Origin: Microcoleus sp. FACHB-68
Lineage (GTDB): Bacteria; Cyanobacteriota; Cyanobacteriia; Cyanobacteriales; Oscillatoriaceae
Assembly: GCF_014695715.1 (NCBI RefSeq)
Contig: NZ_JACJOT010000003.1
Location: forward strand, 186,001-250,000
Direction of reading: 5' to 3'
Length of the DNA stretch: 64,000 nt
In this document: positions 49,257 to 59,568 of the stretch, in pieces
Numbering within the stretch: the stretch's first letter is position 1
Layout of the letters: each line of letters opens with the position of its first letter
The notes under the pieces: generated by a model
What the model saw: only the letters and a program-made list of their open reading frames with translations
The model's database searches: none
Told to the model about the DNA's origin: nothing
Translations under genes and position numbers: made by a program

Positions 49257-50582
49257 TTAAAGTTGATTTCTCGCCTTTAATTGTAAATAACGTTCGACTA
49301 ATTGATCGCTAATCTGATGAGCCGGCGCATCTAAAACCAGCACGCCTTTCTGCTTTAAATTCGCAAACGCAACTTGTCGCTGAGAGAGTAAATCTAAAGC
49401 AACCGCACGTGCATAAGTTGCAGACACATCCTCGGTGAAAGTGTGGGCGAGAAAGTCAACTTGAGGATCGCGCAGAGTCACACAAAATGGCAAATAGCGC
49501 GGCGTTAGGCGTGCCAAACCGGCAAGAAGTTCGGCTGAGGCAGTCACATCAACAATATCTGTAATTAACACCACCAGTGCTCGCCGAGTTTGCTGCTTCA
49601 CGAGATTTGTTACCGCACCTATATAATCGGGTTCTAATAACACCGGCTGAATCGGTGTGAGTCTCTCAATCAGCCGGCTGAGATGATGCTGACCCCGTTC
49701 TGGAGGAATCCAGGTGGTTACTTCGCGATCAAACACGCCAACCCCCACCCGATCACCCCGATTTAACCCAGCCAAAGCCAGCGCCAGCGTCGCATTCAAA
49801 CCCCAATCAAACCGCTTCAATCCTTGCACCTGTGCCGTCATCAGGCGTCCCCGATCCAGTAAAATCATCAAGGTTTGCTCATGTTCTGGCTCTAAAACCC
49901 TGACTTGCAGAGGCATCCGGCTGGGTACGCTAAACCGGCGTGCAGAGGCTTTCCAATCGATCATGCGGGGATCGTCGCCACTGCTGTATTCCCGCAATTC
50001 TGCAAATTCTGTCCCCATGCCAAATTTACGCGCTTGCTGCATATTGCCGGTTGATAGCAGTGTCAGGCGAATGGAAAGTGCCCGCAATGCCAACAAATCC
50101 GGATAAACAGCCACCTTTTGAGTTGCTGGAATTTTCCAATTATGCCAAGCCAAACCCCAAGCACCCAACTGACGCACTTGAATGTCTCCCCACGGATACT
50201 CACCTCGATGCGCCGGCTTAACGGTGTAAGTGAGTTCTTGAGTGGTGTTTGCCGGCAAGGAAGCCTGTAGTGCCGGCATCGAAACTTCAAACTCAACGGG
50301 GTAGCCGTCACGAATTTGAATATTTGCCGGCTGCTTACCTGATTGTACTGACAGAATAACTGGATTATCCCGCCCAATCGAGAGGCGTCCGAGGGGAGTG
50401 CGCGTGATTTCTACACGGTGACTTTTCAGCCGTAAGTTATCTAAAAACATCAATAACAAGATGCCGGCATCATATAGCAAAGTGCTGATGATGCTGACCT
50501 GATTGTTAAAGGCTATGGCGAGTGCCGGTGCGATTACAATGCCTAGAAGTAACAGTAAATAAACTCTTTGAGAAGGAATCAT
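49257..50582 (-). CDS. DUF58 domain protein
   Basis: 441 residues. Two N-terminal membrane helices (LLLLLGIVIAPALAIAF; ISTLLYDAGILLLMFLD), a beta-rich middle, and the DUF58 signature EFAELREYSSGDDPRMIDWK followed by a von Willebrand-A-like fold (TLMILLDRGRLM, ALVVLITDIVD). DUF58 proteins are the usual partners of MoxR ATPases. In most genomes it directly follows moxR; here a foreign-looking cassette of 780 bases separates them. Confidence 0.93.
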   Translation of the reverse strand: MIPSQRVYLLLLLGIVIAPALAIAFNNQVSIISTLLYDAGILLLMFLDNLRLKSHRVEITRTPLGRLSIGRDNPVILSVQSGKQPANIQIRDGYPVEFEVSMPALQASLPANTTQELTYTVKPAHRGEYPWGDIQVRQLGAWGLAWHNWKIPATQKVAVYPDLLALRALSIRLTLLSTGNMQQARKFGMGTEFAELREYSSGDDPRMIDWKASARRFSVPSRMPLQVRVLEPEHEQTLMILLDRGRLMTAQVQGLKRFDWGLNATLALALAGLNRGDRVGVGVFDREVTTWIPPERGQHHLSRLIERLTPIQPVLLEPDYIGAVTNLVKQQTRRALVVLITDIVDVTASAELLAGLARLTPRYLPFCVTLRDPQVDFLAHTFTEDVSATYARAVALDLLSQRQVAFANLKQKGVLVLDAPAHQISDQLVERYLQLKARNQL

Positions 50583-50587
50583 TTTTT

Positions 50588-51362
50588 AAGTGCTGAGTGC
50601 TGAGTCCTGAGTGCTGAGTAGGGAGTTAAAAGTAGAGAGTTTCTGTTTTCAGTTGGAAGTAAAGTTTAAGTAAAAAGTTGAGAGTTTTACTTTTGAGTGA
50701 GAAGTGGGAGTAGGGAGTCAGGGTTTAACTCCTAGTTTGAAACTTTGAGTTGGGAGTTTGGCGTTCCGAGCTATTTTTAATCTGCGATTGTTTTCTTTGC
50801 TTTTCAACCGAAGCTCGAAGACCACCAACGATTAGAGAAACTTCCCTTGCCAAGGTAAAGAATTGGTCAAACTCATCTTGGGTAAGATAGCCGGCATCAA
50901 AAGCCACGTAGAGTTGAGAACGCAGTTCAGCGCAAGAAGCTTTTGCGATGGAAAGAAACTGATGAAACTCTCCTAAAGAACTACGTTCAAAACCCTCAGC
51001 AATATTAGACATAATCGAAACAGCCGCTCGTTGTATTTGTCCCGAAAGTCCAAAATCTTTAGCGAAGGCACCTTGTTGAGTGATTTGATAAATCATTCGA
51101 GTTAGCACTCTCGCTTTTTGCCAAGCAATCAAATCCTCAAATCGTTCTATTTTACTCATTCGCAAATCTTCCTCAAAAGACTATCTTATTTTCGCTTTCC
51201 ATCCCAAATCAAAACAGAAAATCAGAACTCCCTACTCCCACTTCTCACTCCCTACTCCCACTTCTCACTCAAAACTCTCTACTTCCAACTCCCACTTCTC
51301 ACTCCCTACTCCCACTTCTCACTCCCAACTCAGAACTCAGAACTCAGCACTCAGGACTAAAA
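50588..51362. mobile_element. Candidate small cassette: four-helix-bundle gene between inverted heptamer-repeat arrays
   Basis: The gap between moxR and DUF58 has, on the left (50588-50750), an array of GAGTGCT / GTGAGAA / GGGAGTA words and on the right (51225-51360) the reverse complement of the same words. An exact 24-base segment at 50695-50718 is present, inverted, three times on the right (51227-51250, 51247-51270, 51301-51324). Between them is one gene whose 3' end runs into the left array. It splits a gene group that is normally contiguous. No transposase is present. Whether it moves is unproven. Confidence 0.5.
50725..51159 (-). CDS. Four-helix-bundle protein (S23 / IVS-type family)
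   Basis: 144 residues from ATG 51159, preceded by GAGGAAG. The core [20 protein letters not shown], then [20 protein letters not shown] and [20 protein letters not shown], is the four-helix-bundle family found in 23S rRNA intervening sequences and, in a related branch, as the Avd accessory protein of diversity-generating retroelements. No reverse transcriptase is near. The last 15 or so residues ([14 protein letters not shown]) are encoded by the flanking repeat and are not part of the domain. Confidence 0.88.
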
Positions 51363-51368
51363 AAGCAC

Positions 51369-52319
51369 TCATCTAGGCACCGGCACCTGATTTAACAGGG
51401 TGCTGACAACCGCATCAACCTGCAACCCATCTAACTGCGCTTCAGGCTTTAAAATCAGCCGGTGACGCAACAAAGGTGCAGCAATTGCCTTAATATTATC
51501 TGGAGTTACAAAATCGCGATCATTTAGCCAAGCATGAGCTTTACTTGCCTGTAACCAAGCCACAGCAGAACGGGGAGATGCACCCAACGCTAAATCAGGA
51601 TGCTGTCGCGAACGCTGTACCAAATTTAATAGATAATCCATCACATTATCTGCAACTTTAATCGCTCTCACTGCTTGACGCGCTTGCAAAACTTGTTCCA
51701 CCGTTGCCAAAGGTTTTAAACGTCCTAAATCAAAACGTCTCGACGGCGAACCGGCTTGAGAATTGAGCAACATTTGCTTTTCTGCTGCCGCCTCTGGATA
51801 ACCGACAATCAGCTTAAATAAAAACCGATCTAACTGCGCTTCTGGCAGGGGATAAGTCCCTTCAAATTCTAAAGAATTTTGCGTGGCCATCACCCAAAAT
51901 AGCTCCGGTAACGGCATACTTTCCCCATCCAAAGTGACCTGCTGTTCCTCCATTGCTTCTAAGAGTGCTGCTTGGGTTTTTGGGGGTGTTCGGTTAATTT
52001 CATCAGCCAATAATACTTGAGTGAAAACCGGCCCTTTTTTTAAAGTAAAATTTCGGGTGTTGAGATCAAAAATATTTGTCCCTAAAATATCTGCCGGCAA
52101 AATATCTGGCGTTAGCTGAATTCGCCGGAAATCTGCTTGCACCAATCTGGCAAGGACTTGAGCTAAAAGCGTTTTGCCGGTTCCTGGCACCCCTTCTAAA
52201 ATTACATGACCTCCGGCAAGCATTGCTACTAGCAACTGCTGCACCAGTGTTGATTGACCGACAACGATCTGGTTGAGGGTTTGGCTTAGGCGTGTAAATA
52301 CCGTGTTTGTGTCGCTCAT
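51369..52319 (-). CDS. MoxR-family AAA+ ATPase
   Basis: 316 residues. Walker A GVPGTGKTLL (about 43-52), Walker B VLLADEINRTPPKTQAALLE, sensor WVMATQNSLEFEGTYPLPEA and the arginine-finger region. MoxR ATPases act as chaperones that assemble or activate VWA and DUF58 partners. Order upstream to downstream on this strand is DUF4129, DUF4350, MoxR, cassette, DUF58. Confidence 0.95.
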   Translation of the reverse strand: MSDTNTVFTRLSQTLNQIVVGQSTLVQQLLVAMLAGGHVILEGVPGTGKTLLAQVLARLVQADFRRIQLTPDILPADILGTNIFDLNTRNFTLKKGPVFTQVLLADEINRTPPKTQAALLEAMEEQQVTLDGESMPLPELFWVMATQNSLEFEGTYPLPEAQLDRFLFKLIVGYPEAAAEKQMLLNSQAGSPSRRFDLGRLKPLATVEQVLQARQAVRAIKVADNVMDYLLNLVQRSRQHPDLALGASPRSAVAWLQASKAHAWLNDRDFVTPDNIKAIAAPLLRHRLILKPEAQLDGLQVDAVVSTLLNQVPVPR

Positions 52320-58328: not shown

Positions 58329-58868
58329 CAAGTTTGGGGTAAATGTAGTTATTATTTGTCTAACTGGTATTTTGAAGGGACTTTCAAGTCTCTCTACAAA
58401 TGCCAGTTTTTCTCTAATTACTGCTTATAAAATTCGCGACTTTAATTGATGTCCTAAAAACCGGAAATTCAATAATAACAAAACGTGAAACTGCGCTGAA
58501 AAATATTCCTAACTAGGGGTGTGGTTCGTGAACTCTGCAAATGTCTGACAAAATGGCTTTGACTAAAAAAGGGAACCTTGTGTGCCCGCCCTTCACTTGT
58601 CTTGGATTTGTCTGTTTTTTAAAATTTATTTATATAAATAAATTTTACATTTATTTCACTGTTTAAAGGGATACAACCTTTGATGAAAACAGGTGAATTG
58701 CAAAAATAAATCAAACAAATTTAAATGGCAACTATCTTCATAAATATGTCTAAGTAGGTAGTAACTTTGAGTCAGGAGATCCCAGAGGTTGAGAGCACAT
58801 CAGACTGTTTCTGCCATGAATTTAATTGAAATGACTGTTAACAAACCCGATTACTCGCGCAAACCAGG
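58329..58868. other. Intergenic region before the kinase pseudogene
   Basis: About 540 bases, AT-rich, with a perfect 28-base palindrome at 58620-58647 and no open frame of note. It may be the old promoter of the pseudogene. Confidence 0.55.
58620..58647. repeat. 28-bp perfect AT-only palindrome
   Basis: The half TAAAATTTATTTAT is followed at once by its exact complement with no loop. Only A and T are used. It could be a protein-binding dyad or a cruciform-prone site. Confidence 0.8.
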
Positions 58869-59568
58869 CATCAAGCAGAAAAACTCGCTCAGAGGTTGCA
58901 GTATTTGCAGCAAACTCAACGGATGATGCCAACGGAAAAATTAGCAAATCGGGGGCAGTTGGTTGCCGGTGTAGCGCACGAGATTAGGAAGCCATTGTTT
59001 CTATGAAGTGGGGGCAGAACGTCTAGCGCTGGTGTTGTCGCTGCTGAAATTTTCTAACGTAGATCAAGATCAGAAGAAGCCGGTGAATATTCATGAAGGC
59101 ATTGACATTGCCCTATTGCTCTTGCAACACCGGCTGAAGGCGAAGACTCAGCGGGCGGGGATTGAGGTGGTTAAAGAATAGGGCGATTTGCCGCCGGTGA
59201 AGTGCTTTGCCGCCCAAATGAATCAGGTATTTATGAATATTCTCAGCAATGCCATTGACTCATTGGAAACAGTCTCTTCCCAGCGCAGGATCTCAATTCA
59301 CACGTCGCTAGGGGATGGGGGAAATGCTCACCAGACTCGCTCGGTTGTGATTCGCATTTGCGATAATCGCCCTGGAATGCCGGCAGCCTTGCGTCAGCGT
59401 ATTTTTGATCCCTTTTTTACCACAAAACAAGCCAAGGGAGCAACGGGGATGGGGTTATCTATCAGCTATCAAATCGTTGTTGAGAACCACGGCGGCACCC
59501 TCAAATGTGTCTCTGATGCCGGCGAAGGGACAGAATTTTGGATTGAAATTCCTATCGACCCTAAATAA
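58869..59568 (+). pseudogene. Decayed histidine kinase (third paralogue of the flanking kinases)
   Basis: The remains match the kinase core of both neighbours. First comes LANRGQLVAGVAHEIRKP, then TGA; the N-N of HEINNP is already changed to R-K. A deletion and frame change remove the part that should follow. It resumes at 59001 with EVGAERLALVLSLLKFSNVD, KKPVNIHEGID, and reaches a TAG at 59179-59181 in VVKE-stop-GDLPPV, where the neighbours read KEYGELP/KEYAPLP (Tyr codon to TAG). The end from 59188 is an intact ATPase piece (NQVFMNILSNAIDSL, FFTTKQAKGATGMGLSISYQ, ending EIPIDPK). No sensor domain is left upstream. Confidence 0.85.

Follow-up and report, generated by a model that had tools for sequence, protein, structure and literature searches.

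Mirrored heptamer arrays around a four-helix-bundle gene in the Microcoleus moxR-DUF58 operon point to a probable transposase-less mobile element present in many bacterial phyla

In Microcoleus sp. FACHB-68 a small gene lies between moxR and a DUF58 gene, with short tandem repeats on both sides, and we asked what this arrangement is and how it came to occupy the operon. The analysed window comprises 64,000 nt (GCF_014695715.1, contig NZ_JACJOT010000003.1, positions 186,001-250,000, forward strand). A previous sequence-only reading had placed here, at 50588-51362, a small cassette lacking a transposase and ending in inverted repeats. The feature is real, but comparison with both sister genomes corrected its boundaries to 50597-51366. 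Its parts, in window coordinates, are as follows:

50597..51366, no strand: inserted segment, 770 bp, missing as a unit in both sister species, where the empty site is contiguous
50583..50760, plus strand: left arm, a heptamer array with inward words AGTGCTG/AGTCCTG/AGTAGGG..., decaying toward the four-helix-bundle gene
51200..51364, minus strand: right arm, a heptamer array with similar words on the opposite strand, ACTCAGC/ACTCCCA/ACTTCTC...
50725..51159, minus strand: four-helix-bundle (4HB) gene, 144 aa, PF05635 23S_rRNA_IVP / TIGR02436, PDB 2gsc_A
50695..50718, plus strand: 24-nt block with exact inverted repeats at 51227, 51247 and 51301
50725..50760, minus strand: final codons of the 4HB ORF, in arm-repeat sequence
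51369..52319, minus strand: moxR-type AAA ATPase gene (PF07726), intact, upstream operon neighbour
49257..50582, minus strand: DUF58 gene (DUF58 domain), intact, downstream operon neighbour

The product of the 4HB gene (144 aa from its ATG) matches PF05635 with 120.5 bits (cut-off 33.8) and TIGR02436, "four helix bundle protein", with 109.9 bits (cut-off 24), and has a solved homologue in PDB 2gsc_A (E 3e-18). Domain matches bear out that the gene separates moxR (208.9 bits to PF07726) from DUF58 (100.2 bits); DUF4350 and RDD genes were also identified among the neighbours. The arrays are reverse complements of each other, as had been read: the segments 50583-50633 and 51314-51364 are 86 % complementary over 51 nt, and there are many further pairs. 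The 24-nt block likewise recurs inverted three times on the right, and has no other copy in the 64-kb window. The proposed derivation of the C-terminal codons from the left array also holds, the last ca. 11 codons of the ORF being degenerate left-arm repeat, in which 50746-50757 matches the right arm exactly. In the predicted fold of the 801-nt sense strand, a long stem closes a loop that holds the 4HB ORF (MFE -309.8 kcal/mol; z -9.9, from 20 shuffles).

The empty site that had been suggested for relatives was found in both of the other genomes from this genus, whose moxR products are ca. 98 % identical to that of FACHB-68 and whose moxR-DUF58 junction measures 20 nt. In the 64-kb alignment, positions 50596 and 51367 are adjacent in both sister genomes, corresponding to a 770-bp insertion with nothing lost; the empty-site sequence reads TTTTAAATGCTGA up to the insertion point and ACTTATC after it. 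Target duplications had also been proposed, and none was seen in the comparison with both genomes. No 4HB gene occurs at this junction in other members of the family in which it is readable, and an arrangement conserved among relatives was rejected, the site being empty there. The lone arrays nearby in the window vary between species mostly in unit number, and an 843-bp stretch at 58573-59415, apparently truncated sensor-kinase DNA, is missing in one sister genome (G001). The surroundings of the second 4HB locus of FACHB-68 are remodelled by other insertions relative to the sister genomes, so there is no clean empty site there.

That second locus, the only other PF05635 gene of the genome, carries mirrored GGGGCAT arrays on its flanks. 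Inverted heptamers were thus present around another 4HB gene, as anticipated, but with a different word rather than the same one; mirrored arrays, whose words differ again, also flank the two nearest homologues of the 4HB gene, which lie at other loci. A 464-kb sample of the genome contained 34 arrays, and the only same-word inverted pairs at most 1.5 kb apart were those of its two 4HB cassettes. Elsewhere, in L158 (2763-4300), a second same-word inverted pair (ATTCGTA) was observed, its arrays separated by ca. 1.45 kb and without a noted PF05635 match.

For PF05635 loci at large, we then aligned the 450 nt on the left locally with the reverse-complemented 450 nt on the right and counted the loci whose best match had SW>=16, a threshold of our own choice applied to draft genomes. 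PF05635 was present in 112 of the 242 cyanobacterial genomes sampled, and 71 % of 92 cyanobacterial loci had matched inverted arms. Control genes reached 3.4 % of 232 in other genomes and 1.1 % of 274 in the own genome (506 genes when pooled; range of rates quoted, 1.1-3.8 %), mismatched pairs 3.8 %, the outer flanks of the cyanobacterial loci 0/88, and genes of Uma2, another abundant cyanobacterial family, 1/30. A set of 75 loci from Planctomycetes, Acidobacteria, Chloroflexi, Bacteroidetes, Clostridia, Verrucomicrobia and others, two of them cyanobacterial, gave 69 %, with 0/65 in the outer flanks; these loci were chosen by one search pattern (S-x-x-x-NIAEG type), so the sample covers one part of the PF05635 family. 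The repeat period among 133 matched cassettes was 7 in 105, 8 in 16 and 9 in 4. Around 30 % of 4HB loci, including decayed or non-heptameric ones, have no matched pair detectable at this score. One cassette (L144, genome G227) shows a conventional-looking 23-nt inverted end, CTGACAGGTGTAGGTTTTTTACA, in place of heptamer arms. The two strongest control matches, named by eye, were a leucyl aminopeptidase-like gene and a haemolysin-type repeat protein gene, neither of them heptamer-armed; the former (L132, 14260-15871) has long G-rich, non-heptameric inverted repeats on either side (score 65.5).

These genomes abound in heptamer arrays, and it could be argued that neutral tandem repeats simply accumulate beside poorly conserved genes, the mirror match being a by-product of low complexity. 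This we regard as very improbable: the rate is about 70 % at 4HB loci but 0-4 % for mismatched pairs, outer flanks, Uma2 genes and the other control genes, and matches in direct orientation are rarer (25 % in the cyanobacterial set, 9 % in the 75-locus set). The words are moreover private to each cassette: across 41 cassettes from 12 genomes, the two arms of one cassette match in 80 %, whereas a left arm matches the right arm of another cassette in the same genome in 8.5 %. Plain low complexity was rejected by the control sets as a source of the mirrored arms. The cassette reading was to fail if arrays proved as frequent where no 4HB gene is present; lone arrays are indeed abundant, evolving by gain or loss of units, but matched inverted pairs around a gene are nearly confined to 4HB genes. 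The description as a cassette with terminal inverted repeats and no transposase therefore stands, and extends far beyond the moxR-DUF58 locus.

After removal of same-site groups, arm words were shared in 51 % (23/45) of 4HB gene pairs at least 75 % identical and located at different sites, against 3.5 % of random pairs, and from this comparison the arms appear to travel with the gene. Read inward, the words have the consensus RGKNRTN, with G at position 2 in 87 %; the consensus lies above a column-permuted null and, only slightly, above a strand-flipped one.

The junction between cas6 (TIGR01877, 77.5 bits) and cas4 (TIGR00372, 179.5 bits) was readable in 16 of the 26 genomes searched within one genus, and it occurs in several states. 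It is empty in four species, holds arrays alone in two, a 4HB gene of subfamily A in three and one of subfamily B in seven, two of the latter copies being truncated; subfamilies A and B are 30 % identical. In one genome (L326, G233), an array-only inward pair also lies in frame within cas6, upstream of the 4HB site (VVMGNGASVIGNG...SQSPITNPQLPIPNYQS).

These observations bear on the converse order of events, in which short tandemly repeated repetitive (STRR) arrays arise by slippage between genes and serve as the target that 4HB genes enter by recombination between arrays. The two species with arrays alone at cas6-cas4 agree with it, as does the host word ATGCTGA at moxR-DUF58, which continues in phase into the left array (GTGCTGA). 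Inward array pairs also exist without a 4HB gene: different-word pairs less than 200 bp apart face inward (+,-) in 16 of 17 cases and outward in none, and distant pairs show no inward preference. The arms, however, are missing at moxR-DUF58 in both sister genomes, four species have neither gene nor arm at cas6-cas4, arm words track 4HB relatedness across different sites, and the arm pattern recurs across phyla. We consider it improbable that the arrays came first.

Cassettes were also found inside genes. Seven genomes carry one at apparently the same codon position of DUF1156 methylase genes, between PPVNP and GAQGLA, and four genomes in a second methylase type after GEPD/GQPD..V. Thirteen open host ORFs of 389-1164 aa span a cassette; related genomes with a copy at a shared position probably inherited it from a small number of insertions, and the independent events are therefore fewer than 13. 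Where scoring was possible (ten cases), the host is read in the +2 frame relative to the 4HB gene; 0.1 stops were observed in the overlapping host frame, where synonymous shuffling predicts 2.26. Among 154 other loci just 4 are open in this frame, and all four likewise lie within long ORFs. Of ten host ORFs scanned, four matched DUF1156, three N6_N4_Mtase and two Eco57I (one of these PglX-like with 443 of 500 bits, under the model's cut-off), and the one unmatched ORF still reads DPACGSASF, a methylase-like motif. The in-gene hosts are mostly antiphage or restriction-modification DNA methylases, and their frame stays open across the 4HB gene. Two further in-gene copies (L098, L104) have a broken host frame. 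A second loop of the DUF1156 genes, between HLYPKV and TVIAW, contains in-frame, array-only inward pairs in L105, L121 and L100 and is unoccupied in L046.

Most cassettes have tandem genes on their two sides (85 of 96 cyanobacterial cases, against a baseline of 64 %). By automatic ORF calls, 55 are in sense, 30 antisense and 11 between convergent or divergent genes in cyanobacteria; outside cyanobacteria the counts are 54 sense, 2 antisense and 16 other. About a third of the tandem-gene cyanobacterial cassettes being antisense, a strict need for sense transcription from the host is weakened. The antisense copies agree with an element that moves only as DNA, its arms acting as terminal inverted repeats (in DNA or as single-strand hairpins) for a putative host transposase or recombinase and the 4HB gene being cargo or a DNA-binding helper. 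The insertion at moxR-DUF58 is clean, has inverted ends and encodes no recombinase, which also favours it; array-only inward pairs resemble non-autonomous derivatives, and DNA-level movement of inverted repeats fits most of the data equally well. Against it stand the strong sense bias outside cyanobacteria (54:2), the lack of both a fixed terminal sequence and a target duplication, and arm words that differ within one genome, which a sequence-specific transposase would hardly tolerate. We view a purely DNA-borne element as unlikely, although it is the strongest of the alternatives.

We consider it probable that the cassette belongs to a pan-bacterial kind of mobile element without transposase, in which a 4HB gene occupies the loop of an inverted-array stem. 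On the comparative evidence, its mobility and arms are well supported, and movement as a unit that rides in operons as a stem-loop element is the best supported account. Related copies occur at different sites, one site has been re-occupied, and host frames are preserved. The cassette would insert blunt into transcribed units (there is no duplication at the one site compared in detail), usually in sense where two tandem genes meet, occasionally in frame within a large gene, and would be tolerated because the neighbouring genes or the host reading frame remain intact. Expression would probably come from the host transcript, which may fold into the predicted hairpin and be trimmed by RNase III as in rRNA intervening sequences (IVS). 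The Xanthomonas homologue is a homopentamer (PMC4990558). A pentameric 4HB protein might bind the arm repeats or the excised RNA; together, the arm consensus and the solved homologue are suggestive of a pentameric ring reading a core spaced by 7 nt. Copying could proceed through an RNA or single-strand intermediate with an enzyme acting in trans, possibly a reverse transcriptase; Avd, a relative of the 4HB protein, partners with one. The own genome has two reverse-transcriptase-like (RVT_1) genes whose products might act in trans (G000:C8:770609-771025 and C8:1280061-1280480), and the cassette is on contig C3. Slippage with intramolecular template switching between the arms would explain why both share one private word.

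PF05635 proteins, hitherto met chiefly as rRNA insertions, are widespread and their function is not known; the mirrored arms supply the family with a unit, a boundary and a test of movement. The element would join three things described separately, namely rRNA IVS, heptamer arrays and Avd-like helix bundles. Its overlap with open methylase frames is also uncommon, a mobile gene lying there within a host gene that is read in another frame. "23S rRNA IVP" came out as CRISPR-linked in a large survey (PMC10910872), a link that the 4HB cassettes between cas6 and cas4 in ten species could help to explain. We found no earlier description of 4HB genes within inverted heptamer arms in open-access PMC text.

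Several known systems share part of this anatomy. Like the cassette, MITEs and REP elements have inverted ends and no transposase; unlike them, the cassette has a conserved gene aboard and no fixed terminal sequence, its ends varying from copy to copy. Of the features of insertion sequences or MITEs, neither a target-site duplication (both empty sites have contiguous flanks) nor a fixed terminal inverted repeat across copies was seen. Rickettsia palindromic elements are palindromic inserts lying in frame in protein genes, of about 100-150 bp, geneless and without heptamer arrays. The cyanobacterial STRR or TAACTGA repeats are of the same unit and array kind as the arms, but the cassette arrays are inverted, matched and tied to one gene family across many phyla. 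Heptameric repeats of the TAACTGA type are known in cyanobacteria and Beggiatoaceae; their description covers direct arrays, with one inverted repeat noted, and does not mention S23 or a helix bundle (PMC4679880).

The family had been read as that of both rRNA IVS and Avd, of which PF05635 membership was confirmed. Avd, the reverse transcriptase partner in diversity-generating retroelements, has a homologous four-helix bundle fold (PMC10053308), which the 4HB protein shares, but this protein (P0001) does not match the Avd equivalog model (subfamily A reaches 23.5 bits, cut-off 80), and membership in that group was rejected on this score; among the neighbours identified, neither a reverse transcriptase nor TR/VR repeats were noted. 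The 23S rRNA IVS of Leptospira and Coxiella have, like the cassette, a PF05635-family protein in the loop of an inverted-repeat stem; in Coxiella, the S23p ORF is looped in a terminal-inverted-repeat stem cut by RNase III, and IVS, sporadic in distribution, have been termed a selfish element (PMC4990558). The moxR-DUF58 cassette has the same layout in its predicted fold, and sporadic distribution is common to both. IVS, however, lie in helix 9, 25 or 45 of 23S rRNA, whereas the cassette lies between moxR and DUF58, and no Rfam match was found at 49-53 kb of the window. Also unlike IVS, the arms are tandem arrays of 7-8 nt with private words, and the hosts are protein operons or, in frame, protein genes. 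The cassette is therefore IVS-like by anatomy and not an IVS by location. We tentatively suggest, at somewhat less than even chances, a new pan-bacterial class of mobile elements, in which a pentameric 4HB protein would read a heptamer code (an RGK core every 7 nt) in mirrored arms; the elements would propagate by way of RNA and settle in frame within antiphage genes, with array-only pairs as non-autonomous dependants and the rRNA IVS as a specialised branch.
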